From the NCBI GenBank assembly GCA_907163375.1, contig CAJQUW010008949.1, positions 69,501-133,500 on the forward strand: a stretch of 64,000 nt of DNA, written 5' to 3'. A program made the translations under genes and the position numbers. Positions within the stretch are counted from its first letter, which is position 1, and the number at the start of each line of letters is the position of its first letter. The notes below the pieces were generated by a model. That model made no database searches. It worked only from the letters and a program-made list of their open reading frames with translations, and was not told the origin of the DNA. Shown here in pieces: positions 3,797-60,266 of the stretch. Origin of the DNA: Prostheceraeus crozeri. Its lineage: Eukaryota; Platyhelminthes; Polycladida; Euryleptidae.

Positions 3797-4369
<573 letters not shown>

Positions 4370-6261: not shown

Positions 6262-6377
6262 CAGTGGTCGGATTCTTAAATTTTGAAAAATTCGTGCATC
6301 ATTTCTGCGGATGTCAATAGTGCATTTTTCAATCATTTTCACTCTGCCCATCTGAATTAAATACTCTCATGTACATA

Positions 6378-8110
6378 CGTGGTGTGATCCAAAATGTCCC
6401 GGACTAACCTACTTGCAGATAACCTGTGATAACCTACTTCAGATGTAAATTTAGGTCTTTAAGGCATGAGAAATATGGTCGCCGAAATTTTTCCGGTCAG
6501 TTTTCTATTTTTAAAAAATATTTTTACATTTTAACATGAATTTCTGTATTTTCTGAATTGATCGAGATCCGATTTGTCTTATTGTTATAGTTAGATTGAT
6601 TTTGATTTGTACCTTATTTGACGGATATCTTTGCCATGAATATTGCACGTCTTTTGTTAATTGCTTCATGTGTTACGATATCAATCAGTTAAGTTCATTC
6701 AGCACGCATTCATTAAGAAATCCGTGTCAACGATGGTTCTTTGTTCTATCAGTTTTCATGATGGATGTGACAAGCGTGTCTTCAGTCGAATATCGCAGTG
6801 TGATACGATACCTCCTGATCCGCGGCTTCGCTAATGGTGACATTCTAAAGGAATTAAGCCTGGCATATGGAAGCAAAGCTCCATCGAGAACTACTGCTTA
6901 TTTCTGGATAAGCGAATTTAAACGCGGAAGACAATCTGTGGAGCAAGATTTTTCAACTGTTGGTCGGCCGCAGGAGATTCCGGAAGAGAAATCGAGTCAG
7001 TGCGATGAAGTGATTACAGCACACAGAAGGATAACCATCCGTGAGTTGTCAAGAGAGTTGCGAATCAGTTATCACTCCTGTCATGACATCATCGAAAGAC
7101 TTGGATATCGCAAACTGGCATCACGTTTCGTACCGAAGTTTCTGTCACCTGAAATGAAGGAGAACAGACTTCTGGCGGCACAGTCAAATTTGGATCTCCT
7201 CGAAATGCACGGAGATCAGTTTCTGAACTGCATCCTTACAGAGGATGAAACACCTTTAAGTTTGTATCTGCCTCAAAGTAAGCGAGAATCTGCAGAGTGG
7301 CGAAAATCAGGCGAGTCTGCCCCTTTGAAAATGCGATCCGGAACATCACATCGCCGGTCGTTGATGCTGACGGTCTTTTGGAACGCTTCGGGAATCCAAC
7401 TGGTTGACTTTGCGGATAAAGGAGTAAGAATCAATAGCGAATATTATTCCAATCTGTTATCTGAAGCGAGGAAGAAAATAAGAAAGCCACGAAACATTCC
7501 CCTCTACTTGCTTCATGACAATGCTCCGATTCACACCTCGCAGGAGACAACCAATGCCTTAACGAGAAACGGATTTCAACTATTGAGCCATCCTCCTTAT
7601 TCACCTGACTTGGCCCCAAGTGACTTCTATCTGTTTAGATTCCTCAAAAAGCATCTTCGTGGACACCATTTTGAATCGCCAGTTGAACTGCGGGATGCAG
7701 TTACTGAGTTTTTTGATTCTTTGACACCGGAATTTTTTCATAAAGCTTTTTGTGAATTGAGACTTCGTTGGCAAAAAGTGACGAATGCTAACGGCTCATA
7801 CATTGAAAAGTAAACTGTTTTCTGGAACAAAACATTTGTTTTTCCGTTAATTATTAGTCAGGTTATTAGTGATAGCTTAACTGTCAAGTTAATCTAAATA
7901 TATTAATTCTAAATCGCTAGAATTTATAGGAAAATCTTGAAATTCAAACAAAAATGTTTGAAAATTTTGAAAAAATAGAAAACTGACCGGAAAAATTTCG
8001 GCAACCATATTTCTCATGCCTTAAAGACCTAAATTTACATCTGAAGTAGTATTCGTTATCACAGGTTATCTGCAAGTAGGTTAGTCCGGGACATTTTGGA
8101 TCACACCACG
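6378..8110 (+). mobile_element. mariner transposon with long inverted repeats
   Basis: A 1.73-kb element with near-identical inverted repeats of about 135 bp (6378-6512 and 7973-8110, starting CGTGGTGTGATCCAAAATG), differing mainly by a 5-6 base indel and a few substitutions. It is flanked by TA on both sides (6376-6377 and 8111-8112), the mariner target duplication, and carries one uninterrupted transposase gene. It sits about 115 bases inside the left end of the hAT element. A related uninterrupted sequence at 14347-14595 shows the site before insertion. Repeats this long are more than the roughly 30 bp of classic mariners. Confidence 0.9.
6758..7813 (+). CDS. mariner transposase, apparently intact
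   Basis: A 351-codon open frame, the usual length of a mariner transposase (about 345). The N-terminal half has a helix-turn-helix region (EYRSVIRYLLIRGFANGDI, then a second around TIRELSRELRISYHS) that should bind the inverted repeats. The catalytic half has the DDD triad: Asp in ILTEDET, Asp in LLHDNAPIH and Asp in SPDLAPSDFYLF. Exactly 34 residues separate the second and third, the DD34D spacing of mariners. The frame is open further upstream to about 6596, but I chose Met at 6758 (Met-Met-Asp) because family length and homology begin there. The WVPHEL-type linker of Mos1 is not evident; the matching place reads KFLSPEMKENR. No stop or frameshift was seen, so the copy could be active or recently active. 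Confidence 0.85.
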   Translation: MMDVTSVSSVEYRSVIRYLLIRGFANGDILKELSLAYGSKAPSRTTAYFWISEFKRGRQSVEQDFSTVGRPQEIPEEKSSQCDEVITAHRRITIRELSRELRISYHSCHDIIERLGYRKLASRFVPKFLSPEMKENRLLAAQSNLDLLEMHGDQFLNCILTEDETPLSLYLPQSKRESAEWRKSGESAPLKMRSGTSHRRSLMLTVFWNASGIQLVDFADKGVRINSEYYSNLLSEARKKIRKPRNIPLYLLHDNAPIHTSQETTNALTRNGFQLLSHPPYSPDLAPSDFYLFRFLKKHLRGHHFESPVELRDAVTEFFDSLTPEFFHKAFCELRLRWQKVTNANGSYIEK

Positions 8111-8382
8111 TACATACATGTATACAGCACGGCTCAGCGAGTTTGCATCAAGCATCAATATGACTCCGTAAATCTCTCTACTGCTGCTGTGGATGTTTAC
8201 CATCAATGGGCGGATTACTTTCATTATGTTACATGTATTGTACATAGATACTATATTCAACAAAATTTGAATATCCTGCTACTTGAAATCGGCATTACTT
8301 TCAGAAGGTATCTAAAATAAATAGAATTTGGAATTCTACTCATTTGTTATGGGTAGGCTTATTCCGACAGTATAGCGACGTG

Positions 8383-28277: not shown

Positions 28278-29165
28278 TGTAACGGGCCGAACTAGTAGAT
28301 ATAAATTAGATGGGTAAGTATGATGCGCGTACTGTAAGTGTTGCGTTATAAACCTACCGATTGCTGCCAGTGGTTTCCTTTGAATCCTCAGCAGTCTCCA
28401 AATCCTTCGCCTCTTGTCGTAGAAGCAGTCGTAGAAGCAACAGCAGTTCACTATTAAGATTATTTATTATTATTTTGAGAACAATACCCAAACCAGAAGG
28501 CCTATAGGTATTATTCACTAATTTTACCCAACCCAAGGGGATATAGGTAGGACAATATTGAATTACCAGACCAACCGCATCGAAGGCTAGGCCTATAAGG
28601 TAGTTATTATCAACACGTGAATGACTTAAAGTCTAACCCAACTCCGAAGAGCTATAGGTCTATTATTATTATTATGTCTGTGACAGCGTAAACCCAACTC
28701 GGAGAGCTTTAGGTTTCTTCTTCTTATTATTATTATATTATGTCTGTGACAGCGTAAACTCAACTCGGAGAGCTTTAAGTTTCCTATTATCATTATTATG
28801 TCTGTGACAGCGTAAACCCAACTCGGAGAGCTATAGGTTTGTTATTATTTAATTTATGTGGCATAGCAAACCCGTCTCGTAAAGTTATAAATTTATTCAG
28901 CCACTACACTTAATATACAATTTATTTTATATATAAATGTGTTACTATTCTCTACATAAACATATAGCACAATCACACCGGACAAGTCACATACCACTTC
29001 GCCGTATACTACACGTATGTCAATGCTTGTATCGTTCTAGTCGTGAACAGAGTTCACCAAATTTATTAAATCGACTTTACTATTACAAAGCATATTTAAA
29101 CGACAGCGTCGTACATTTTGTTATCTGTAGTTATTTGGATATTGTATGCCTTCTATTATTCGGCA

Positions 29166-29202
<37 letters not shown>

Positions 29203-29374
29203 TGATTATATATAATCCGCTGTGTCCCAGTACCATCAACAAGCATAATAAGCATAAATAATACATTTAAATGAATGTACACATTTTCATGCCATTTAAA
29301 ACCGAAACTAACATTTATAGTTTCATTGAAATGTCATGTAATCAATGATATCATAGTAAAACAATACTACTACA
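28278..29374 (-). repeat. Gypsy 3' LTR
   Basis: Runs (plus strand) from TGTAACGGGCCGA to ...ACTACTACA, so on the element strand it is TG...CA. It contains about five imperfect tandem copies of a 55-70 base block (gtctgtgacagcgtaaaccc, then aactcggagagctttagg, then att-rich) between about 28570 and 28890, and an (AT)n run at 29167-29200. About 1.0 kb of it closely matches the right LTR. Confidence 0.85.
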
Positions 29375-29386
29375 CTTCCCCCTACT
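29375..29386 (-). promoter_or_regulatory. Gypsy polypurine tract
   Basis: AGTAGGGGGAAG on the element strand directly before the 3' LTR, the priming site for plus-strand DNA. Confidence 0.7.
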
Positions 29387-29413: not shown

Positions 29414-30211
29414 TCATAGACGGAAGACACGCTTGAAATTGTCTCGGACAATATTGCGTAAGTTTTCTTCCGTGAGGTCGCGGCATTTAGCTACACGGGA
29501 GAGAACATAATCCGTTCGCGTTGGATATCTGGCAAGATGAGGCGCATCCGTCTCTACCAGTAGGCGTTCGATCGCGATGCCCCGTATGGCCTGAATCCTG
29601 GGATCGTTCCTCCGACTCAGATCGTTGCGGACGAGAATGGACCCAACGCTGATAAACATGCTGCGGAAGAGATCGGCAAAAGAACGTATTATCTCCCGAG
29701 GGACGTAAGTAGAATGCAAGATCAGTCGATTGGCCGGATTTATGTGGTTCAGCAAAATCTCTTCCAGGGTTTCGTGGGCCTCTGTATCTCCCCACTCCTT
29801 CCCTCTACAGTATAGGATCAATGGGAGGGAAAGTTCAGCGGCCAACAAAGCCTGGTCACAGAATGCTCGACACTGGCAGTCCCAATCAATGGTCCATTTC
29901 CTGTTGAGTCCAGTCTCGCCGATGGCCCCTATATTGTTGTTGTGGCGTACATGGCGGCGAAGTTGTGCTTCAACCGAAGGAGACCAAATGTCGGCATGAC
30001 GGGGCTGCAGACCCATAGCTAAGATTATCTTGACGTGGGGAAAGTCTCCTTGGAGGTCGCTGTGTCCCCAGGTGTCGACATTGTCCCGAATGTCTACTAC
30101 TGCGCTCATCTCTGCGATATCAGCCTCCATCTCATCGATATGGCCAGAATGGCCCGCGCGAACGCAAGTGTCGTAGAGGTGGATGTGGGCTTCACCTCTC
30201 CAAACGGACGA
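29414..30211 (-). pseudogene. TatD-type metal-dependent hydrolase domain in the Gypsy element
   Basis: About 265 codons resembling TatD DNases, metal-dependent phosphodiesterases with a TIM-barrel fold. From the N-terminus: EAHIHLYDTC (HxH metal motif, codons at 30187-30179), IGAIGETGLNRKW (metal-bridging Glu), a helix AFCDQALLAAELSLPLILYC, LILHSTYVPRE (His), IAIERLLVETDAPHLARYP (conserved ETDAP Asp) and a C-terminal helix ending RDNFKRVF. The family's third His, in LP-x-x-H-CR, is Tyr here, so activity in this copy is doubtful. The ORF opens after a TGA at 30212-30214 and has no Met before 30130. Upstream reading is shared through two frameshifts with the pol extension, which suggests an original fusion. 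It ends about 28 bases before the polypurine tract. Confidence 0.8.
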
Positions 30212-30261
30212 TCATCTCCGTCTGCACCCTCGCCTTCTGGACCCTCACCTCACGTAGGTCT

Positions 30262-31569
30262 TCAACGGGCGCCGAAGATGCACCCTGTGTGGCTATAGGC
30301 GGACTGGCGGCCGCAGATGGAATCGGCTCCAGGTGAGCCAGATGGCACAACCACAAAGGCAGCGTCGGCGCTGACGTCTGCGAGATTGTCAAGGCTGGAT
30401 GTCGAGTCACGAAGATTGTCGGTCATGGAGGCTGTAGGAGCCGAAGGGTTCCCAACCACCACTGCCCGACTATCGCTGATTACCTCGAGATCGATGACTC
30501 CTCGAGTGTCCTCGGACGTTACGAGCAGAACGTCGGCCTCTTGTTGTACATTTTGGCGCGCCTCTTTCAGCGTCTGTTGTTGGTTTCGCATTTTCCGCTG
30601 ATGACGCTGCTGTTTGTCGCTGATGTTCTCGCGATTTAAATTAATGTGCGACTCATGCAGTCGAATAAGTTGGCGAGACGGAACTCTCCACAGGTCTGCC
30701 AAATGAATGATACGGCCGTGTACGATGGTTTGGGCGTCTCTGGATGTGGCCAGAGGCGTAGCTTCAATGACGGCCCAGCTTAAACATCGGTCTTTGGTCT
30801 TCCTTTTCCAACCTGGAGGACAGCCCTGAACCAATCCCTCACCCAATAAATATTTTTGCAGTTCTAATTTAGCTGACTTCGCTTCTGCTTTTGGTATGCA
30901 GGATCCACCAGTTGCCATTTTCTGGAAGGAAAGACAGTGAATATCGGCCTGATGTTCTACGATAACGGGTTCTATTTCTATCTCGGAAATGTCGGAGTCG
31001 GTTACGTCTGACGAAGCTGTGGTACTGTGAATTTCAATCATTGGGGCAGTGGACTCTGTTGTGTCACTGTCACAATCTTCTGCAATCATAGGTAAGGTGG
31101 AGTCGGTTGCATCGGTCCCCACTAGATCATCTACGCTGATGTCGGATTCATCCCGCTCGTCTTCGATGCAATCTTCAGCATTGTTCCTGACGCAATGGAA
31201 TTTTTTTAACCGATCAGCGTGTGAGACAAACGACTTTCTCCCGCGCTTGGTGTCGCGAATGAGATATGTGTTGTCAGAAAATCTCTGCTCTATGACCCAA
31301 GGTCCGTCCCATGGGCGATAAAATTTACGTTGTTCCCCTTTAGGAGCAATGGTGTGGTAGTACATCACGAGATCTCCTACTTGATAAGTAACATCTCTCA
31401 CCCCCTGCGCGTCATATCCTCGTTTCTGACGAGTCTGCTGAATGCGAGATATGGTTTTTACGATATCCCAGGTCTTCATCAGTTTTTCCTGGATTTCATA
31501 AATATGTTCCGACGTTTCTCGTTCTTGCACAGTTTCCAAATCCAGCTCAAAATCAACCGGAAGTCGCAT
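30262..31569 (-). pseudogene. Gypsy pol C-terminal extension (linker ORF)
   Basis: A 435-codon open frame. Residues 1-150 are the integrase C-terminus (KRGYDAQGVRDVTYQVGDLV, the GPY/F module). Residues 150-215 are acidic and Ser/Thr-rich (DESDISVDDLVGTDATDST). Residues 215-310 form a compact unknown segment (GLVQGCPPGWKRKTKDRCLS, HGRIIHLADLWRVPSRQLIR). Residues 310-360 are coiled-coil-like (KQQRHQRKMRNQQQTLKEAR). The rest is low complexity. No chromodomain or Env features were seen. A frameshift near 30290 and another near 30195 lead on to the TatD-like domain; the intervening 30 residues (EDLREVRVQKARVQ) run in a third frame. Confidence 0.65.
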
Positions 31570-32165
31570 TTCGCGACCGTATGTGACGGAGGCTGGAGAG
31601 AAACCTGTTGTACTGTGGGTACTGGAGCGGTATGTCAGAGGCAGTATGATATTGTTTGATCCCAGTTATCACGATCGCACTTCTCATGAGCGATAACTAT
31701 CTGCTTCAAGGTGCGATTGAAGCGCTCGACGCCGCCGTTACCCTGCGGCCGATAAGATGTCGTACGCATTTCATGATGCCAAGCAAATTGCAGAGCTCCC
31801 TGAACACCTTGGATTGAACTAAGCACCTTTGTCAGAGTGAATCCTATCTGGGACCCCATGGCGACAGATCCATTCCCTTAATACGGCCCTGCCGCAGTAG
31901 ATGTCTCTTTATTGGGTACTGGAGTGGCATCAGCCCACTTGGAAAAGAGATCAACCATTGTGAGAATATAGCGGTTACCTCGCTTGGTTTTGCGCAAAGG
32001 TCCCACCAGATCGACCTCGATGCATTCCATCGGCTTGCCGGTGATAATGGAAGTCATCGGAGTTCGCATTTTTGGTATAGGACCTTTGAACGTGACACAT
32101 ACTCCGCAACCATTTAAATATTTGGTAGTGTCCTCTCTCATACATGGCCACCAGAAACGCATCCC
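31200..32165 (-). pseudogene. Gypsy integrase, frameshifted
   Basis: Pieces in three frames make a Gypsy integrase. The zinc-binding part has H-x-GRDAF and CGVCVTFKG (about 32100). The catalytic core has EVDLVGPL (first Asp), RYILTMVDLFSKWADA, then in another frame HGVPDRIHSDKG (second Asp, about 31830) and in a third SYRPQGNGGVERFNRTLKQI (Glu, about 31730). The C-terminal GPY/F-type module KFYRPWDGPWVIEQRF (about 31310) lies at the start of the long downstream ORF. Frameshifts near 31880 and 31800, a stop after the second Asp motif, and a break near 31600-31640 make this inactive. Confidence 0.75.
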
Positions 32166-34194
32166 GACCTAAATGGGATGACCCGACGCCTGCATGACAT
32201 TGTTGAATGAACGACATTCTTTCTGTAGCAGGTGGAATAAATTTCTTGACATCTCCCATCACCCGGAACAGCAGCCCATCTTCTACAATCACAGACTCCC
32301 AGAATTTGACAATATGTTTGATTTCTTCTGAACAAGTCTGCAATCGTGTGGAAGTGGGTTTGTCCGAGTGATGTCTGTGGGTCTTCCAAGACAGGACCTG
32401 AGCCAAATCGGGATCCTGAAGGGTTTCTCGTTTCATGTCATCGACTCCGGCACCAGGAGACCATAAATTGAAGATAACTACGGAGTCATCTTCTAGGCGA
32501 TCCGACAACTGTACCGTCTTTTCGTCACAATGAATAGTACTGGGCAACCTGGAAAGAGCATCAGCATTGCTATGTGCTGACCCGGGACGGTAGACGCAGT
32601 CAAATTCAAATTCTTCCAGAATTTGGAGCCATCGGGCTAGCATTCCGCGCGGTTCTTTGAAACTTCGCAACCATTCTAAGGACTTGTAGTCCACTCTAGC
32701 AAGGAATTTTTTTCCTGTAAGATATGGACGAAAGTGTTCCATAAAGAAAACAAGGGCAAACAATTCCCTTTTTGTTGGTGCGTAATTGGACTGGGCTGTG
32801 TTCAGTGACTTACTGGCATACGCAATTACCTTTTCAGAACCGCCCGGTTGCATTTGGGAGAGAACAACTCCGATGGCATATCCAGATGCATCTGTATCGA
32901 GGATGAAACACCCCGATTCTGCCCGAAAGTCTGGCATGGTTAGTATCGGTGCTGAAGTGAGACAGTTCTTGAGGGTACTGAAAGCGGTTTGACAGCTTTC
33001 TGTCCAAGTGAAGGAGTGATCCTTCCGAATCAAATCATGCAGAGGTTTGACGATCCGCGCAAAGTCTTTGACAAACCGTCGGTAATAAGACGGCAGTCCT
33101 AAGAATTCCTTCACCTGTTTGGCCGTTGTTGGTGTGGGCCACTTTATTACTTTGTTCGTCTTCTCTGGATCGGTATGGATGCCATCTGGCGTCTCCATAT
33201 GTCCGAGATATCGGACAGACTGTAAGGCCCATTGACATTTCTTAGTGTCAAGTTGTAGATGTGCATTCCTCAACCTTGATAAAACCAATTCTATGTCCTG
33301 CAAATGGTCAATCCAATTTCGACTGAAGATGATTATATCATCTAAGTGCACCAAACAATTGACACCCACGAGGCCCCGCAATTTATCATCCATCATTCGT
33401 TGGAATGTGGCGGGGGCCGAAGCAAGTCCAAATGGCATCACATTGAACTCGTATAGGCCCAAAGGGCATATGAAAGCAGATTTTTGTTTATCAGAATGTT
33501 GGAGCGAAATCTGCCAGTAACCGGATTTGAGGTATAGCACCGAGAAGTACGAAGCGCCGTGCATGGCGTCCAAAGCGTCGGATACAGTTGGCAGGGGGTA
33601 GGCGTCGAACTGGCATGCTTGGTTCAACTTGCGGCAATCAACGCAAAAACGAAGGCTACCGTCTCGCTTCTGAACTAATACAATCGTACTAGCCCATGGA
33701 CTATTGCTGTACAAGATAATGCCTTGATCAAGCATTTCCTGAATCTGCTTCGTAACTTCTGCTTTCAAGTGTGGTGGGACTCGCCTGCAAGTCTGACGAA
33801 TAGGTGCATGGGCACCCGTATTTATACGATGTTCTACCCCGGAACCTCGACCCAATGGCCGGTGGTCAGACATGAAAACATCGTCATATTGTTTTAATAA
33901 CGTTTGCAATTGTGAACTTTGGAAAGTTGTGAGGGTTGTGTCTTGCGCATTCATCTGATTTACATCGGAGCCTTTATGCATTACTTGACATATTCTGTTG
34001 GAGGATTCCTCCAAGTTTTCGCCCTCATCCTGGACAAATGAGATTTTATCGACCTCATAGCTAACTACAAAAGGTTCAAATTTGCCGATGACTTCATTTT
34101 TGATGATGACCGAATCATCATTGTTATTGACAATAGTAATTATTATATTTTTATCATTCACAGTGGTGATAGAGGGCAAAAAGGTCAGCCCCAA
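32166..34194 (-). pseudogene. pol: Gypsy reverse transcriptase and RNase H
   Basis: An open frame of about 675 codons. The RT has LVQKRDGSLRFCVDCRKLNQ, QKSAFICPLGLYEFNVMPFG and the active-site box VHLDDIIIFS (33337-33345), where the family usually has Tyr before the two-residue spacing to Asp-Asp. In the first catalytic motif the family Asp of F-S-x-L-D-L-K-S-G-Y is replaced by Tyr (VLYLKSGYWQ, codon 33532-33534), so polymerase activity should be lost. RNase H follows with FILDTDASGYAIG, ELFALVFFMEHF, ARVDYKSLEWL and NADALSRLP, all acidic residues present. The frame runs on into the integrase zinc region before a frameshift near 32165. Confidence 0.85.
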
Positions 34195-34739: not shown

Positions 34740-36061
34740 CTACCGCTTTTGAGCGTTTCCCGCTGGACAGAATCGAGCGATGTGTCCTTTGCCTGAACAT
34801 TTAAAGCACACTATTTCTTGATTTCGTTCCGGATCAAACGAATTCGATGCTGCTGGTGCTGATGTTATAGGGTGTGGTGGAGCAGAAATTGCAGGCACGT
34901 CAACATGGGGTTGTGCTATAGTTGGAAGGTCGCTCGTCCTGTGTACAGCCAAGGTTGGTGCAGAATAACCTAATTGTCTACCCTGCGGAGGTGTGTAAAC
35001 ATTTTGAGGAATAATTGGTATTTGTCTTATCTGGCGATCACGTGATGCAGAGCGCCAAGGTACAGAGAAATTGTTTGGCCATATTTGATGTTGTGGTGAC
35101 GACTGAGTGCCTCAAGAACCATATTCATACACTGGTTGTCGAAAATTTCGACGCTCCACTGGAGTCGTTGCCGATGTAATGGATCGGAACGGTAAAGTAC
35201 AGGAAGCAGCAATGTGGCCAAAGTTATTGCACTTATAACAACGTATGGGAGAATTGAAAGTGGAAATAGTAGAAGTTCGTGTCTGGGGAACATTTGCATC
35301 TACCCTTTCAAATCGAGTGACGACATCCAAGTAGTCGTTCAATGAGTTTGGTGGAAACCTGCACATTGACAATTTAACATTCCTACTTGTATCTCGTGAC
35401 ATGAGCGTATTCAAAACTCGACGCTCCAAGTCATAGGTACGCATATCTGGGAATGCGTGTCTGCCGAGGCGCAGAAGTACATCAGCGTAATCGCGGATTG
35501 TCTCATCTTTTGTCCGCATACGCGACTCGTACGCCGCTTCCGCCTCTATGGTTGTTGCAAACGGGCAATACCTACATCACATTTCGTGGATCACCTCTGC
35601 GTAAGTGTGGGTATCTGCTCGATCCACAACAATTTCATTAGGCCTATCAACGGTTTTGATCAATAACAAACGCAATTTACGTGAATCTGAAAAGTTATCG
35701 GCGAGCAACTCGAAGACCTTGAGCCAACGATCAAAGGCTAATTTCCCATCAAATTTTTGCAAAGCATTTATATCATCCGGGATTTTATTTGCATTCGATG
35801 GCTTACCATGTAATAGAGAGGTGCATTTGTGTCAATGGTATCGATTTGTGTCTGGAGCTTAGCCAGAACGTGGACTATGTCAGAAGTTAAGTTCATGTTT
35901 GCAATACCTTTCCCTTCTGCTTCTCGTCTAGTAAAAAAATCAACGTCATCAGCGTTCAAAGCAGGTTCACCATCCGTTTTTACATGTGATTCGTGCTGAC
36001 TCCTACCTCGGAATAGTGTTGTAGCTGAAAACCCCGTCGCTCCAAAGCCATAGTGCGACAT
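34740..36061 (-). pseudogene. gag: Gypsy gag with two zinc knuckles
   Basis: The minus-strand frame opens at the Met at 36061 (MSHYGFGATGF), shifts near 35765 and continues to 34740. It encodes the capsid-like stretch FDGKLAFDRWLKVFELLADN, then KDETIRDYADVLLRLGRHAF, and two CX2CX4HX4C zinc knuckles: CYKCNNFGHIAASC (about 35240) and CFKCSGKGHIARFC (about 34790), which bind RNA in the particle. In-frame stops at 35577 and 35112 plus the frameshift break it, so no full Gag is made from this copy. Two knuckles with a linker of about 145 residues between them is a wide spacing. Confidence 0.7.
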
Positions 36062-36085
36062 AATGGAATACTGATCGGTTCTATA

Positions 36086-36097
36086 CCGCTGCCACCA
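36086..36097 (-). promoter_or_regulatory. Gypsy primer-binding site (tRNA-Leu type)
   Basis: TGGTGGCAGCGG on the element strand, two bases inside the 5' LTR, is complementary to the 3' end CCGCTGCCACCA known from animal tRNA-Leu. Confidence 0.7.
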
Positions 36098-36099
36098 AG

Positions 36100-37098
36100 T
36101 GTAACGGGCCGAGGTAGTAGGTATAAATTAAATGGGTAGGTATGATGCGCGTACTGTAAATGTTGCGTTATAAACCTACCGATTGCTGCCAGTGGTGTCC
36201 TTTGAATCCTCAGCAGTCTCCGAATCCTTCGCCTCTTGTCGTAGAAGCAGCAGGAGCAGCAGCAGCAGTTCACTATTAAGATTATTTATTATTATTTTGA
36301 GAACAATACCCAAAGCAGAAGGCCTATAGGTAATATTCACGGCACTAATTTTAACCAACCCAAGGGGATATAGGTAGGGCAATATTGAATTACCAGACCA
36401 ACCGTATCGAAGGCTATAAGGTAGTTATTATCAACACGTGAATGACTTAAAGTCTAACCCAACTCCGAAGAGCTATAGGTCTATTATCATTATTATGTCT
36501 GTGGCAGCGTAAACCCAACTCGGAGAGCTTTAGGTTTCTTCTTCTTATTATTATTATGTCTGTGACAGCGTAAACCCAACTCGGAGAGCTTTAAGTTTCT
36601 TATTATCATTATTATGTCTGTGACAGCGTAAACCCAACTCGGAGAGCTATAGGTTTGTTGTTATTATTTAACTTTATGTGGCAGAGCAAACCCGCCTCGT
36701 AAAGTTATAAATTTACTCAGCCACTACACTAATATACAATTTATTTTATATACAAATGTGTTACTATTCTCTACATAAACATATAACACAATCACACCGG
36801 ACAAGTCACATACCACTTCGCCGTATACTACACGTATGTTAATGCATGTTCCGTTCTAGTTGTGAACAGAGTTCACCAAATTTATTAAATCGACTTTTAC
36901 TATTACAAAGCATATTTAAACGACAGCGTCGTACATTTTGTTATCGGTAGTTATTTGGATATTGTATGCCTTCTATTGTTCGGCACCTATATATATCATG
37001 ATTATATATAATCCGCTGTTTCCCAGTGCCATCAACAAGCATAATAAGCATAAATAATACATTTAAATGTACACATTTTCATGCCATTTAAAACCGAA
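36100..37098 (-). repeat. Gypsy 5' LTR
   Basis: Matches 28278-29311 closely; small differences include a shorter (AT)n run. Similarity drops past aaaaccgaa at 37098, where the left LTR has about 63 more bases, so the outer end of this LTR is truncated or replaced. Contains the same tandem blocks (36470-36690). Confidence 0.85.
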
Positions 37099-38266
37099 GC
37101 TCGAGCAGAATGTTTGACGTCATGTCTTCTAGTAACAGTCTATTATTATTGAGTTGTACATTGTGAAGCAAAGGTCTGATCAATTTTCACACAACATTTT
37201 GTGGTATTTGATTTGCGCTTGTGAATGCAGCGCATTGACTTAACTTGCAGGGTACAATGATTCAAGTGATCTTTCATTTACGTTTGTCTACTGTTCATCT
37301 TTCATGCCTGTCGAGATCGTTGTGTGCAAGTATTCATTTAGTGTCTGATTGGTCGGCTGCGTTGATTGCTGTAGTATATCTGATTCCAAGTGTCTTTACA
37401 AACCGTCTTTGTCAATTTGTCGTGAACATGGCTAGTGGACGCTAGCCGAAAACGGTCGACAGTATCATTTTGAAGAAAATAAATATAAATAAATGAAAGA
37501 TCACTTTAATCTGAGTTCTTCCGCTGTTCAAACCTAAAACATATGACTTAGTCTCTGTTCGGAATTGCAGGGTACAGTTGTATAGTTTGACATCGGAAAG
37601 CTGTAAGTTGAGCTTTCAAGTAGTTTTAACGGATTACCCAGTTTTTAAAGTTTTCCTTATGCTGAAAAGTTCTGAAGTTAAGTGTCTCATTCTTCGAAAC
37701 CTTCCTCTTTAGTCGATTAGCCAGGGAGTAGAACGATTCCGCGGATTTGGTGATGAAAATGGTCACTCGTATTTCGTGCAAATATGTAATAAAAAAATAT
37801 GAATGGGGGGGGGGGTAGGGGTATCCGAAAATTATCAGGTGTCACTAAAAGAAACGCGTTTCCGATTTGCAAGTATATACTCAGTAATTAATATAGAGGC
37901 CTAAGTGTATAGCCTGCGTCATGTGAGCATGAATTAGTTAAGTCTCACTTTTCCTTTCAGAAAAATTATTCTATCATTTGGATTTTTGCGAATGTAATTT
38001 ACTTTAGACAACCTAAAAGAGTTTCAACAGCTAAATATGTAAAATTCCGAAAAATGTCAAATTATGTGAAAAACTTAAAATCCGAGACTAGATTAGAGAC
38101 TGCATGTAATTGTGCATGTTAATTAACAGTACAAGCTGCTTCTCTTCTACATATATCTGAAATGTTTTCAATGATACGCATGTATAAACATATTGCTAAC
38201 TGTGTGTGAACGTATTTTTAAAGTTCAGAAATTGAAAATCTTATCAGAAATTGAAATTTTTTTCTA
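37099..38266. other. intron 1, no gene recognised
   Basis: Contains an 11-base G run near 37805 and short ORFs only. Confidence 0.4.
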
Positions 38267-39174: not shown

Positions 39175-40425
39175 TCATTTTTCATTTGAGTCATTTAGTT
39201 CCTTGCATTCATTCACTGTAATTTTAACAGTGCAATTTTGGAATGAGAACCTTGCTCCACTTTGACACTCAATGGATCTCACTTCGTTATTTGACTGATT
39301 ACAGTATATAGCACTGCTCATTTGCTTCTCAAATAAGCTCCCATCGATGTATGCAGAATCTGCAGCATCAGATATGCGGCCAGTCTTCTTCCTGGCGACC
39401 TCGCTTGGAATCCCGGCTTGCACCAGCCTATTCTTCGCGGTTCTTCTCAGGCTTGTATTTGTAAGGAACATGTCACTTGATGTAGAATGTAGAAACAAGT
39501 TCCTCACAGTTTGCTGAATGCTATGTATACCCAAGCGGGTGTTTTTATACCAGACGGGGCCTCGAGGATAAGGTATGCATGCAAGATAAAATGCCTTGTT
39601 GCCTTCTTGGTTATGAGCTTCAGGGCGATGCGACACGTACTCTTTGAATAACTTCAAAGGACAGCGTTCGGCATTATCACTGGCATACACTCGCGTGACC
39701 TTCGGATCCATTCTTGTGTTAGTAATACCAAAGCGTTTGTTTTTAGACATTCGCTCTGTGTATTCAAGAAAGTCACCATTTTCATCCTTTCCAAGGCGTA
39801 TTTGTGAATCCTCACCGTAGTCCAAATCATATTGCTCTTGAGCTGCTCTTAAGCTAAAATGCAATCCAAGATGATAAATCAACGTTTGCTGAAGTTGTTT
39901 TGGATTTGAATATCCAAAAATTCCTTTTCGCCACAATTCATCTTCGGCTTCAATCGGTATATTGTTTGCTCGCTTTTTGGGTTTAGCAAGACCAGCCTTA
40001 GCTGACAGTTTCATTTCAGCATTTAGGACCATGCGCGACTCTTGAAACTGAGGATCTTTGAATAAGGAGAAATTAAAATTGTAGTTGTGTATGAAATTGT
40101 ATTGAATCATCGCTCCAAGCTCTTTTAAAGTTGACGGTGGATACCTGCTACCATCAGTTTTTCTGACATCAGAAAAGAAGTACTTGAGGCAGTAATTCAA
40201 ATCGGATTCGGTAAATTCATCAATTCCCTTGATTACCTTTAATGGACCGTGAATTCTAATTTTCCATTCATCGTGCCAACTCTTAAATAGCTTAAATGCC
40301 CACTTCGCTTTTTGAATAGTATTTTTTGGGGTCACTTCATTTAGATGGCTTTGAATTTCAGTGTCAGTAGTTGATGCAAATCTACTGGAAGTGGGAATTT
40401 GATTTTCAGTAATACGTGAAGCCAT
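39175..40425 (-). CDS. Crypton-type tyrosine recombinase, single open ORF, altered active site
   Basis: A 416-residue protein without interruption, starting MASRITENQIP. Residues 40-110 are a helical N-terminal domain (KNTIQKAKWAFKLFKSWHDE) and residues 150-400 the catalytic domain of Crypton-derived recombinases (related to the C-terminal part of ZMYM and QRICH1 proteins). The first Arg (LGLHFSLRAAQEQ), the second Arg (SLRRTAKNRL) and the Tyr (AADSAYID) are there. The His before the second Arg is Thr (LTNTSLRR) and the His of the TGH motif is Arg (KKTGRIS). Canonical strand exchange is thus unlikely, yet the frame is intact, which could mean recent decay or a kept non-catalytic role. It lies in intron 1 of the UPF0193 gene on the opposite strand. 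Confidence 0.75.
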   Translation of the reverse strand: MASRITENQIPTSSRFASTTDTEIQSHLNEVTPKNTIQKAKWAFKLFKSWHDEWKIRIHGPLKVIKGIDEFTESDLNYCLKYFFSDVRKTDGSRYPPSTLKELGAMIQYNFIHNYNFNFSLFKDPQFQESRMVLNAEMKLSAKAGLAKPKKRANNIPIEAEDELWRKGIFGYSNPKQLQQTLIYHLGLHFSLRAAQEQYDLDYGEDSQIRLGKDENGDFLEYTERMSKNKRFGITNTRMDPKVTRVYASDNAERCPLKLFKEYVSHRPEAHNQEGNKAFYLACIPYPRGPVWYKNTRLGIHSIQQTVRNLFLHSTSSDMFLTNTSLRRTAKNRLVQAGIPSEVARKKTGRISDAADSAYIDGSLFEKQMSSAIYCNQSNNEVRSIECQSGARFSFQNCTVKITVNECKELNDSNEK

Positions 40426-41033
40426 TATCGTGTAAACCTTTCAGGAGATGAGCTTGGATAAAATGACCAGATTATTCCAGTTAGATTATGCATGATTCAG
40501 ATTTCAAACATCATTGAGAATATCATGGAATATACCAGGTAATCCATGGACTTCTAAATCATAGTGCTATTGTAGTCTGTGGATGAACCATAGAATTCGA
40601 TCTTTCATGCCTTTGCTATCCATGGACTCCTACAACGAATGCATAGATATATAAGACTGAATCCATAGAATTCCAAGGTTTCAAATCTAAAAATGAAAAT
40701 AAATCTATGGAAACCTAGATATTCTAGATCTCCAAGAATACAGAATCCCAAATCTATGGTTGAATATATTAATTATGTTTGTCAATGTTGATATCATTAC
40801 ATACAGTGCTATAAATATGTTATAAATGCCTCGATATCGGATCCAAATGGCCAAATATCCTCGTGGCTTCGCCACTCGGACATTCTGACCATTTAAATCC
40901 TCTATCGAGGCATTTATCATATACGTACATTCATTTAGTAGCCTTGAAAAGCCGTATCACCCGGTGAAAACGTTTGGCTAGTAAAAATTCTAATTTGAGA
41001 TTCTCTTCTGGTTCTCACTTATTTCATTATATA

Positions 41034-53299: not shown

Positions 53300-53589
53300 A
53301 ACATAGTGGTGATCAGAGAGTTTCAGAGGAGTTTGGCGCAGATATTTCCATTTTTCTTGGATGGTGTTTCGTCTTTCTCTATTCCGATAGATGAGACCGG
53401 CTTATTATCCTTCCATGAACTGTTCGCTCTCTCTGTATTCTTAAATTTATTACTCTCTAAAACCCAAAGAAGCTCGCACCTCCGAACCTCTTCAATTAGT
53501 TTATCACCGAACCTCTTCTAGTTTTAGTTTATCACCCATACTGGGGATCGGTCCCCTCGCACGATATTCTCCTTGACTTTTTTCAGGAT

Positions 53590-54498
53590 TTGATTGATAA
53601 CACAACATGTAGCCATGTTTTGATTTTGGGGGATGTTAATGATCTCCGTTTGAGTATAAATGATTTTTCTGAGTATAATGGTCTGACACAAATTGTACAA
53701 CATGCTACGAGAGGCCGTAACATTTTAGACATTGTTCTCACTAATCATGCTTTGAAGTTTGAAACTCCGACTTGTATAGCTCCTCTCGGTCGTTCTGACC
53801 ACAAAGGGATTTATATTAAAAGCTCTGTTCCATCCCCCAATGTTTCCTTTATTAAGAAAGTCCGCGCCTTCACAGCTTCCTCCTTTGCCTCGTGTTATTC
53901 CTTCCTTGGTTCTGTGAACTGGGATGACTTTCTGAGTGTCAGTGATGTAGACTTGATGGTCTACCTTTTTCAAGATATTTTGTTATTCTGCTATGAACTT
54001 TACTTTCCGGAAAAACATGTTCGGATGCGCTCCTCTGAGCCACCTTGGATAAAACCCTCTCTGAAAGTTCTGTCGGACGCCAGGGATAAGGCTCTTTCCC
54101 GCGTTAACTTTTGCAAATATCTTGCTTTGCGAGAGAAGTTCAACTCCCAAATCCTCAAAGCTAAGTCTCGGCATTTTTCTCGGTTGCACTCAAGCTCTCC
54201 CTCAGAAGTCTGGAAAACAATTAACAGCCAACTAAAATGTACTTTTGACTCTCGTCTTGATCCCTCATTAGCTTCTGAGCTTAATGACAAATTTATTGAG
54301 CACTTTGCACCTCCTGATATCCATTTATTCAACAGCTCTTCTGTTCATAGCACCCATTCTTTGTCTGTTCCTCATGTTTCTGAATTTACTGTTTATAACA
54401 TGATTAGAAGATGTAAGTCGAATTCCACAGGACCTGATGGCATCCCACCACACTTTTTCCGTCTGTTTGCCGAGGTCTTAGCCAAGCCCTTGCTATAA
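53590..54498 (+). pseudogene. LINE ORF2, endonuclease end and linker
   Basis: A 302-codon frame with VLILGDVND (the GDFN motif), TRGRNILDIVLTN and PLGRSDHKGI (the SDH motif), marks of the LINE endonuclease that nicks target DNA. An open stretch just upstream (about 53530-53590, with YWGSVPS) belongs to the same domain. A linker with conserved Trp and Pro (SEPPWIKPSLKVL, EVWKTINSQL) leads to CKSNSTGPDGIPPHFF, the start of the RT domain. A one-base loss near 54493 shifts the frame and stops it at 54498. Confidence 0.8.
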
Positions 54499-55754
54499 TC
54501 TATAATCGTTCGCTCGAGACTGCTATCTTCCCTCAGCAATGGAAACTTGCTAACATCACGCCATTACCCAAAGTTGACGGCACTTTCCGCCCAATCTCCA
54601 TACTTCCATTCGCCAGCAAGGTTCTCGAAAGGCTGATACGGGACAAGGTTGTTCTACCGTCCATTTCTGTGCCTCTAAATCGTAGTCAATTCGGTTTCAT
54701 TCCGAACTCCTTTGGCGGCTGTACCAATGCAGCACTTTCTATTCGGCTCCACTTACTTCAACATCTTTCCAAAAATCCCGGAAATTCAGCGAAACTACTT
54801 GCTGTGGATTTCGAAAAAGCTTTCGATTCCATAAGTCACCATATTCTCTTAAACACCTTGAAAGAACAACTTCACTGTAATTCCCACTCTGTTAGGCTTG
54901 TCCAAAGCTTCCTGTCTGATCGCTTTCAGAGAGTAACGTGTGAAAATTCCACTACGGACTGGAAGTGTATCACCAGTGGTGTCCCTCAGGACTCTGTACT
55001 GGGCCCCCTTTTATTTGTCCTCCTGATTAATGATTTGCCCTCCTTTTCCGACACCGCCGTGGTAGCCTACGCTGACGACATTACCCTTATCCATTTTGTT
55101 GAAAGAGACTCAACTTCTGATTTCCAAGCTATCGTAGACTCTTTTCATGACTGGTCTTTGAGTAAGAAACTGAACATCAATATTGATAAGACCAAGCTTC
55201 TATCAGTTCGACGGTCTATGACTCCATCTGTTGCTCCTGTTACAATCGATGGGTTTGTTATTGATGAAGTTCGTTCTGTTAAGATCCTGGGGGTTTACTT
55301 CACGGATGATTTGAAATGGGATGTTCAATTCAACTTCTTATACAAAAAAATGTGTAGGAGTCTTTCCTGTGTAAAAAGGTTGAAAGTGAATTGTAATACC
55401 TGTAATGTTATCTGGCGAGCCTACAACGGCCTCGTAATGTGTCATTTGAATTTTTGCTGGCCAGTGATATGTGATTTGCCTATGAAATACCTCGCTAAGA
55501 TCGAACGAATTGATCGCCTTGCCGCCAGATGGGCCAATATCAAAAATGTTCTTCCTCTGAGGAATAGACTGGACGAATCGTGCATCAAACTGATAACGAA
55601 AGTTTCCAAGAATATTGAAGTACACCCTCTCAGCGAATTCTTTGAAATTCGCTCTGAAACCTGTAACACCAGACATTCTAGAGCTTTACTTCCTTTACGT
55701 CGTAAATCAAGATTGTACAGTCAGTCATTTGTAAGATTTTCACCATTTTCTTGA
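54492..55754 (+). pseudogene. LINE ORF2, reverse transcriptase
   Basis: About 420 codons continuing the previous frame after the shift. RT blocks in order: LANITPLPKVDGTFRPISIL, RSQFGF, LLAVDFEKAFDSISH (first catalytic Asp), SGVPQDSVLGPLLF (Asp where most copies have Gly), VVAYADDITL (catalytic Asp pair), KLNINIDKTKLL and SVKILGVYF. C-terminal conserved region: AARWANIKNVLPLRNRLDES. The catalytic residues remain, so decay is recent. Confidence 0.85.
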
Positions 55755-58940: not shown

Positions 58941-60266
58941 TCAATTGTTATTTTTTATAATGACATTACAACCATTGTTAAAATTGAAAGTTATGTTTGG
59001 TCTCATTGCAGTTGATGCATTCGTTGTTGATACGCTTGCCATTTCACAAATTTTCTTACTATCTAAAATAGCTGAGCAGTTCGACAACAGATAGTCGTTA
59101 GTTCGTTTGTAGTTGCGAACTCCAACAGCACTTTGATGCCCGGTGTGCTCCATGATGAGTTGTTCATCGACATTCGATTGATATAGGCGACTCGCACAGG
59201 TAGTTCTGAGACTATGGTTAGTTTTTCTGCCATCAATTCCAGACAGAGAACAGATGTCTTTCATAAATTTACTCAATGAAGTTTTGCCAACCGGTCTGGT
59301 TGAAAACCAGCATCCATCTTTCGGTTCTTTGAGCGGCTGCAGATAAAATCGCGTTGTTCTTTTCGGTCGAACTGAGATAAACTTCGTGAAAAGATCGATG
59401 TGACTTTTCCTCCCGTCGCTTGAAACATTTTCAAAATGAACAACTTTCTTTGGAGATTTTCGCATATCCCTTAAACCTCCACTAAATGTCTTCGAAAATT
59501 TCTCACTGTAAATGAGGTAACGTTTACCGTTTCTTTCTGTCGCTTCGAATTGGTCAATTGTCAACTCAGTGTGCTCACTTCCACCTCTTAAAGCGAAATG
59601 TATTCCATTTAGGTAGAACAGCGTCTTGATTAGCTGCGAAGGACTTTCATCTCCGAAGACAGAAGTCCACATCTTCTTTTCTTCCTCATCTGAAATGATT
59701 TCTGCGTGTTTGCGCTGAAGCCCTACACCATTTCTCGTAGCGATCTTCATCGCAGCATCCAAACTTCGTGTTATGAGATAAAACTTATGTTCTTTGAAAA
59801 AGTCCACACTTCGATTACCATCCAGATTGATGTGATGCTGAATCCCGGAAATAATGCTGACGAGACTAGTTGGAGAATAGCATCCTCCGCCATCCTTTCT
59901 TGTTTCATGAATGAAGCGAGATACATTGTCAATAAGTTATTCATCGGTCAAATTTTGTACTTGCACATCTGCATTGAACCTTTGCTTATACCAATACGTA
60001 AACATATTGATCGCCCCCCTATCACGTTTGACTGTGTTCTTCAGGATTACCTGATTGTTCGTGTCATTAATGCTGTCAATTTCAACAAATCTGTGCTGCT
60101 GCTGATTTTTGCTTGTTGTTGGCATTTGGTTGTTCATATCAGGAAATTGAATTTCACTAAAATTGCAATTTTGGTCGTATGATGTTTCATTTATCATTCG
60201 TTGAATTTGCTCTTCGGAGATGCCTACAGGATGCCTATCAAAATTCAGCATACCATTCCAAGCCAT
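58941..60266 (-). pseudogene. Crypton-type tyrosine recombinase, one in-frame stop
   Basis: A 440-residue gene starting MAWNGMLNFDRHPVG. The N-terminal part ends near residue 110 at a TAA (59937-59939); the same frame continues without break to 58941. The central region (KDGGGCYSPTSLVSIISGIQ) is the family's N-terminal helical domain. The catalytic domain keeps every residue: Arg in GIHFALRGGSEHTEL, His and Arg in TNHSLRTTCASRL, His in MEHTGHQSAVGVR and Tyr in RNYKR. A single nonsense change thus separates it from an intact gene. Repeated words (ccgggatatat, gttatct, ttaaaccatagtg/tttaacatagtgg) stand on both sides (58730-58800 and 60340-60510) and could be element ends. Confidence 0.75.

Follow-up and report, generated by a model that had tools for sequence, protein, structure and literature searches.

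The window, a 64,000-nucleotide stretch of the Prostheceraeus crozeri genome (C7440:69501-133500), contains a long terminal repeat (LTR) retrotransposon with a TatD-type nuclease domain behind its integrase. We propose that it represents a group of Ty3/Gypsy elements in this genome whose Pol ends in TatD. Judged from the sequences this is quite probable, as a statement about a group-wide feature and not about its role. The order of the Pol parts would be (protease)-reverse transcriptase-RNase H-integrase-linker-TatD, followed by the polypurine tract and the 3' LTR. As a group feature in the genome, the TatD-bearing Gypsy element is well supported. Most likely the domain is a captured accessory nuclease that is delivered together with integrase and whose substrate we infer. 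Extra domains in LTR retrotransposons can show what limits their life cycle, and in the present group a nuclease domain persisted while several subfamilies diverged.

Results

The TatD domain of the window is encoded on the reverse strand by a single frame, open over 265 codons (29414-30211, translated 30211->29414). The initial annotation had described a Gypsy element that bears a TatD domain behind its integrase, and it proposed a profile search of this frame. The search against PF01026 (TatD_DNase) gave E 1.1e-28 and 100.8 bits, compared to a cut-off of 27, and the domain indeed lies between integrase and the 3' LTR. The HxH codons had been placed correctly at 30187-30179. The interval given there, 29414-31569, takes in the C-terminus of integrase and a linker besides TatD itself (29414-30211). 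TIGR00010 also matches (E 8.4e-27), with 94 bits under the model cut-off of 206, and the best of the solved TatD chains that match the 238-codon ATG frame is 1j6o (2e-8). The AlphaFold2 model is a confident TIM-barrel (pLDDT 90.9, pTM 0.90), for which the top Foldseek match is 6l25, a YcfH-type deoxyribonuclease from S. aureus (TM 0.83). Among the 17 best PDB rows, 13 carry TatD or TATDN in the title; the remaining four belong to 6l25 and 3e2v, with two chains from each, and both of these structures are also matched in sequence by the profile of element TatD domains. With a score above the PF01026 cut-off and a TIM-barrel fold, the domain is thus a member of the TatD family. Its HxH, E, H, H and D positions, presumably the metal ligands, are invariant or nearly so across the database homologues.

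The surrounding element is a Ty3/Gypsy LTR retrotransposon, with reverse transcriptase (RT) and RNase H ahead of integrase, an LTR pair and a polypurine tract, all read on the reverse strand. The 5' LTR (36100-37101), recognized by blastn and a repeat search against 28278-29309, has lost its first ~65 bases and ends ...TTACA ahead of the probable primer-binding region. This region (36080-36099) adjoins the inner end of the LTR and reads CTTGGTGGCAGCGG...; it was placed by position, the primer tRNA not being identified, and a second element, C400, carries a similar TGTGGCAACGG at the equivalent place. Next come a Gag fragment with a zinc knuckle (35112-35519; PF00098, E 6.2e-5) and the RT with RNase H (31975-34194; PF00078 2.4e-29, PF17919 2e-32, PF17917 2.5e-31). 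A short frame (31878-32162) holds the zinc-binding part of integrase (PF17921 5.9e-6, over the cut-off) and the start of its core (PF00665 5.2e-6, 27.1 bits, under the cut-off of 32.6). The C-terminal part of integrase and, behind it, a long linker occupy 30262-31569, where PF22938 (1.4e-9) is the sole Pfam match. Behind the TatD domain, the polypurine tract (29375-29386, AGTAGGGGGAAG) stands immediately ahead of the TGTAG of the 3' LTR, which spans 28278-29374 (TGTAG...TTACA). When gaps are counted, the two LTRs (28278-29309 and 36100-37101) share 91.7% identity; in substitutions alone they differ by 4.0%, plus eight gaps.

TatD domains recur across the genome (2.05 Gb, 14,165 contigs). From 229 PF01026 candidates 150 were scored, and all 150 match at E<=1.1e-9; they fall into 143 places after merging pieces less than 1 kb apart. 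Among them are a gene that is probably bacterial and seven matches arranged in tandem. The search with the window RT/RNase H (61 of 8,836 candidates scored) gave 66 matches that reduce to 61 elements, window copy included. In 43 of the 61 a same-strand TatD match follows 0.7-7 kb downstream; within 9 kb, none has one on the opposite strand. The genome search for further copies that the initial annotation had suggested thus found the domain in many elements and missing from others, 12 of them through a shared clean deletion. Copies lacking the domain had been named there as counter-evidence, which therefore applies in part. Using 175 amino acids of the C400 RT as query (150 of 6,687 candidates scored) and looking 1-8 kb downstream, we found TatD behind 27 of 52 matches with at least 75% identity, 50 of 72 with 54-61% and 1 of 26 with 50-53%, bands that stand for identities and not for a tree. 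The last band holds long open frames (1751, 1751, 1730, 1446 and 1359 codons), so that the absence of TatD there is not mere decay, with the reservation that a TatD outside the 150 scored could be missed. In 13 elements other than the window copy, RT and TatD are reported on the same strand with the same open-frame length (1443, 1453, 1459, 1522, 1527, 1622, 1743, 1743, 1746, 1780, 1780, 1797 and 1816 codons), which we take to be one frame in each.

Individual copies support this organization. C400 (stretch L010), a Gypsy element with TatD after integrase, was found among 19 unselected loci (181 kb) and is the only match to the window RT in 28 loci (267 kb, its neighbour piece L020 included). 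Its LTRs of 630 bp are 99.4% identical, TAAG flanks it on both sides, and it matches Gag knuckle, protease, RT, integrase and TatD profiles, some of them under the curated cut-offs. The RTs of C400 and the window element share 46-51% identity over two main aligned stretches. For C13669 and C2191 the DNA was read from the integrase part into TatD and forms a single continuous frame. Of the two pieces read, L029 carries rve, integrase C-terminus and TatD in one frame (TatD E 3.7e-37, 128.5 bits), and L030 integrase C-terminus and TatD (TatD E 3.2e-32). From C3565 and C866 the TatD-end pieces were read, and their frames are open from the piece edge.

Within the subfamily of C400, TatD has been lost in a defined way. 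The RT of the C9510 copy is 97% identical to that of C400 (frame 1483), and its linker is joined almost directly to the polypurine tract and LTR. Positions 1-1042 of its stretch L037 match L010 8592-7551 (94%), and 1048-1141 match 6580-6487 (93%); compared to C400, ~970 bases including TatD are absent. The 161-base deletion junction was matched over 159-161 bases at 13 places among the 40 of 105 candidates scored, 12 of them with at least 91% identity and one with 83%. The 52 C400-like RT matches comprise the 27 with TatD, 12 with the junction, none with both and 13 with neither. Thus, in 12 copies from a single subfamily TatD is truly absent, removed by the same clean deletion. This offers a matched natural comparison of one subfamily with and without TatD, about 93-94% identical in the sequences flanking the gap in the pair compared, and makes the role of the domain for the element directly testable. 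One of the 13 matches with neither, in a frame of 1819 codons, has a tandem satellite downstream where TatD would be expected (C568:60740-61600, L035).

The domain itself is under constraint. HxH, E, H, H and D are all kept in the TatD of C13669, C2191, C3565 and C866, which belong to different subfamilies and are 60% (C2191), 32% (C3565) and 31% (C866) identical to C13669. Between C13669 and C2191, TatD has a pN of 0.27 and a pS of 0.78 over 263 codons, the integrase C-terminus 0.31 and 0.93 over 93 codons, and the linker 0.43 and 0.77 over 312 codons; pN and pS are given in place of dN/dS because synonymous change is saturated. The rate of change in TatD does not exceed that in the C-terminus of integrase. 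The window domain compared with that of C13669 gives a dN/dS of 0.17 over 264 codons. From the LTR divergence, ~0.5 nonsense and ~2.4 frame changes are expected in the window TatD frame since insertion and none is seen, so its intactness is suggestive only. In the window domain five of the six metal-ligand positions are kept, the His of PLxxHxR being a Tyr, and this His is present in 116 of 116 database homologues. The changed ligand would suit the idea that enzymatic function was lost and that integrase retains TatD as a tail with a structural or nucleic-acid-binding role, and nuclease activity is in any case a prediction from sequence. We regard this as improbable, since all six ligands persist in the four copies just named despite their low identities. 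The domain was probably retained as a metal-dependent nuclease, and the window copy has decayed after it inserted.

Concerning its origin, a profile of five element TatD domains, matched to 16 chains, scores bacterial YcfH/TatD (3.3e-24) above human TATDN1 (3e-16) and TATDN3 (2.6e-9); TATDN2 is not among these chains. The capture from a host TATDN gene that the initial annotation had raised as a possibility is not shown. No host TATDN gene was identified in the genome, host genes being outside the profile comparison. Searched against 5.8 billion proteins, the window TatD found 116 proteins of 25-35% identity, and those with an organism in the name are bacterial. In a tree of the C-terminal TatD regions of the window element and C400 with these 116 proteins, the two element domains group together (support 0.93), in a setting of long branches and short fragments with no eukaryotic TATDN. 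The loop after ETDxP, present in bacterial TatD, is absent from the element domains read. A low identity between subfamilies, 31-32% at the lowest, might speak for several independent captures by different Gypsy families; we give this little credence, because the position is the same, the loop is commonly absent, the two domains in the tree group together and the RTs are near kin. For the same reasons we infer a single capture, which probably predates the divergence of the subfamilies now found in this genome. No close relative of the TatD-bearing element came up outside the source genome in the searches made. Longer TatD fusions (~605-1925 amino acids) gave none at E<=0.001 among 7,999 candidates scored. 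The Pfam column names PF01026 for none of the 120 RT relatives listed (of 3,786) from the 5.8-billion protein database, where proteins of ~406-1,293 amino acids were eligible and a full fusion would escape. Scans suited to close relatives gave three (TatD) and one (RT) pattern matches in IMG/VR and 21 in prokaryote contigs, none of them a relative. In a viral structure library, a Yasminevirus protein was the single match at E<=0.001.

Two of the TatD loci stand apart. At C10044:35122-58937 (piece L034, 34900-35660) seven TatD matches lie on one strand, 3.8-4.3 kb apart; TatD is followed by the polypurine/LTR side in three of the matched units, and the array seems to be built from part of a C400-like element. 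The best PF01026 match of the genome, C8477:616472-617212 (L031), is an uninterrupted TatD frame that has the loop after ETDxP. The piece that holds it has 26% G+C, compared to 37% in unselected stretches of the genome, and the 906-kb contig looks bacterial, perhaps that of a symbiont, within the assembly.

Elsewhere in the window, 6369-8112 is an element with inverted ends of ~180 bp and a 418-codon frame that by eye looks like a mariner-type transposase; its positions 6380-8112 are 97.7% identical to L010 3-1754. A frame on the reverse strand (3797-4369) resembles by eye a ubiquitin-ribosomal L40 fusion in one piece, possibly a processed copy. Also on the reverse strand, 39175-40440 is a recombinase-like frame (DUF3504, PF12012, 1.6e-23, with a weak QRICH1 match under cut-off), which a further recombinase-like frame at 58941-59936 resembles by eye. 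Endonuclease-like and LINE-type reverse transcriptase frames were seen by eye at 53500-55754 on the forward strand.

Discussion

Several observations weigh against a TatD-bearing Gypsy group, besides the changed ligand, the quality of the tree and the lack of close relatives elsewhere. TatD was not seen among the 150 scored matches behind 18 of the 61 elements found with the window RT, nor behind 72 of the 150 matches to the C400 RT; conversely, no listed RT lies upstream of 61 of the 150 TatD matches. The TatD frame of C400 is broken by small frameshifts, its motifs being recognizable across frames. In the window copy integrase and TatD do not form one frame, since that of integrase stops at 30262 and another, that of TatD, starts at 30211; the integrase core is broken as well. 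Together with the truncated 5' LTR and the divergence of the LTRs, this marks the window copy as old and decayed. The separate frame would also suit a chance insertion of a host or bacterial TatD gene fragment into this copy alone. The genome-wide census refutes that idea, which we consider next to impossible: dozens of elements have TatD downstream in the same orientation, and RT and TatD occupy one reported frame in 13, with the passage from integrase into TatD read directly in two. Finally, the spread of a derivative from which the domain is deleted argues that TatD is dispensable in cis.

How the domain is used can be proposed from its position. As the last part of Pol, TatD would be packaged together with RT and integrase and either be freed by the element protease or be left on integrase. 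In the particle or the pre-integration complex it may then trim nucleic acid of the element, such as 3' single-strand ends, RNA remnants or hybrids, tasks that a place beside integrase fits. Copies without TatD could still spread because full copies would supply it in trans. We put forward tentatively that TatD processes element nucleic acid, travels with integrase and can be supplied in trans. The main functional rival, a counter-defence use that the initial annotation had named beside DNA processing, takes TatD for an accessory counter-defence or host-interaction factor outside replication chemistry, for example one that destroys host small RNAs, R-loops or sensor ligands. Such a factor would be dispensable in cis, and the 12 spreading copies with the clean deletion fit it equally well; a parallel is the Gypsy m6A demethylase of orchids, for which a link to host surveillance of transposable elements has been proposed by its authors (PMC9289625). 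We give this alternative slightly less weight than processing; nothing found points to a host target, and trans supply of a replication enzyme accounts for the same loss. In a broader scenario, the elements would form a Metaviridae lineage not described before, with a fourth nucleic-acid enzyme in Pol. This enzyme would be a TatD exonuclease that was gained a single time, acts during or near integration and is supplied in trans, and a natural daughter family deleted for TatD would parasitize full-length copies. This broader scenario is possible, with something less than an even chance.

Gypsy elements are known to have captured enzymes, the case at hand being an AlkB type in orchids, and the fixation of extra domains in LTR retrotransposons is considered rare; the captured domains named in the section of that paper concerned do not include TatD (PMC9289625). 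A search of one open-access library, which takes in neither subscription journals nor repeat databases, turned up no description of TatD within a Gypsy element. A candidate report was set aside, as the term there is the wheat gene TaTDP1 (PMC7545183). Excerpts of other papers mention a human retrocopy of TATDN2 (PMC5408686) and tatdn2 as a fish gene (PMC5840709), and a figure legend on the giant squid genome places a TATDN2 next to transposon-like genes within the Hox cluster (PMC6962438). Some invertebrate genes annotated as TATDN2-like may be retrotransposon pieces; for the squid, this link is a guess.

TatD nucleases are also found in a setting of genome conflict, QatD being that of the Qat anti-phage system. 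The window TatD is not a QatD, scoring 23.6 bits where the NCBIfam equivalog cut-off is 230. With the TatD/YcfH DNases (E. coli TatD, S. aureus 6l25, human TATDN1 and TATDN3) the element domain shares the fold, the HxH-E-H-H-D set and the sequence family; in contrast to them, it is part of a retrotransposon polyprotein and lacks the loop that follows ETDxP in bacterial TatD. The orchid Gypsy elements likewise gained a nucleic-acid enzyme and amplified with it; however, they are plant elements in which the demethylase is an additional ORF and was tested in vitro, whereas TatD here stands in frame after integrase and is known from its sequence (PMC9289625). With Ty3/Gypsy elements (Metaviridae) the window group has in common the TG..CA LTRs, a probable primer-binding site, the Gag zinc knuckle, RT, RNase H, an integrase with H2C2, rve and p58-type C-terminal domain, and the polypurine tract, to which C400 adds a protease match and a 4-bp flanking repeat. 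What sets the window group apart from them is the extra TatD as the last domain of Pol.
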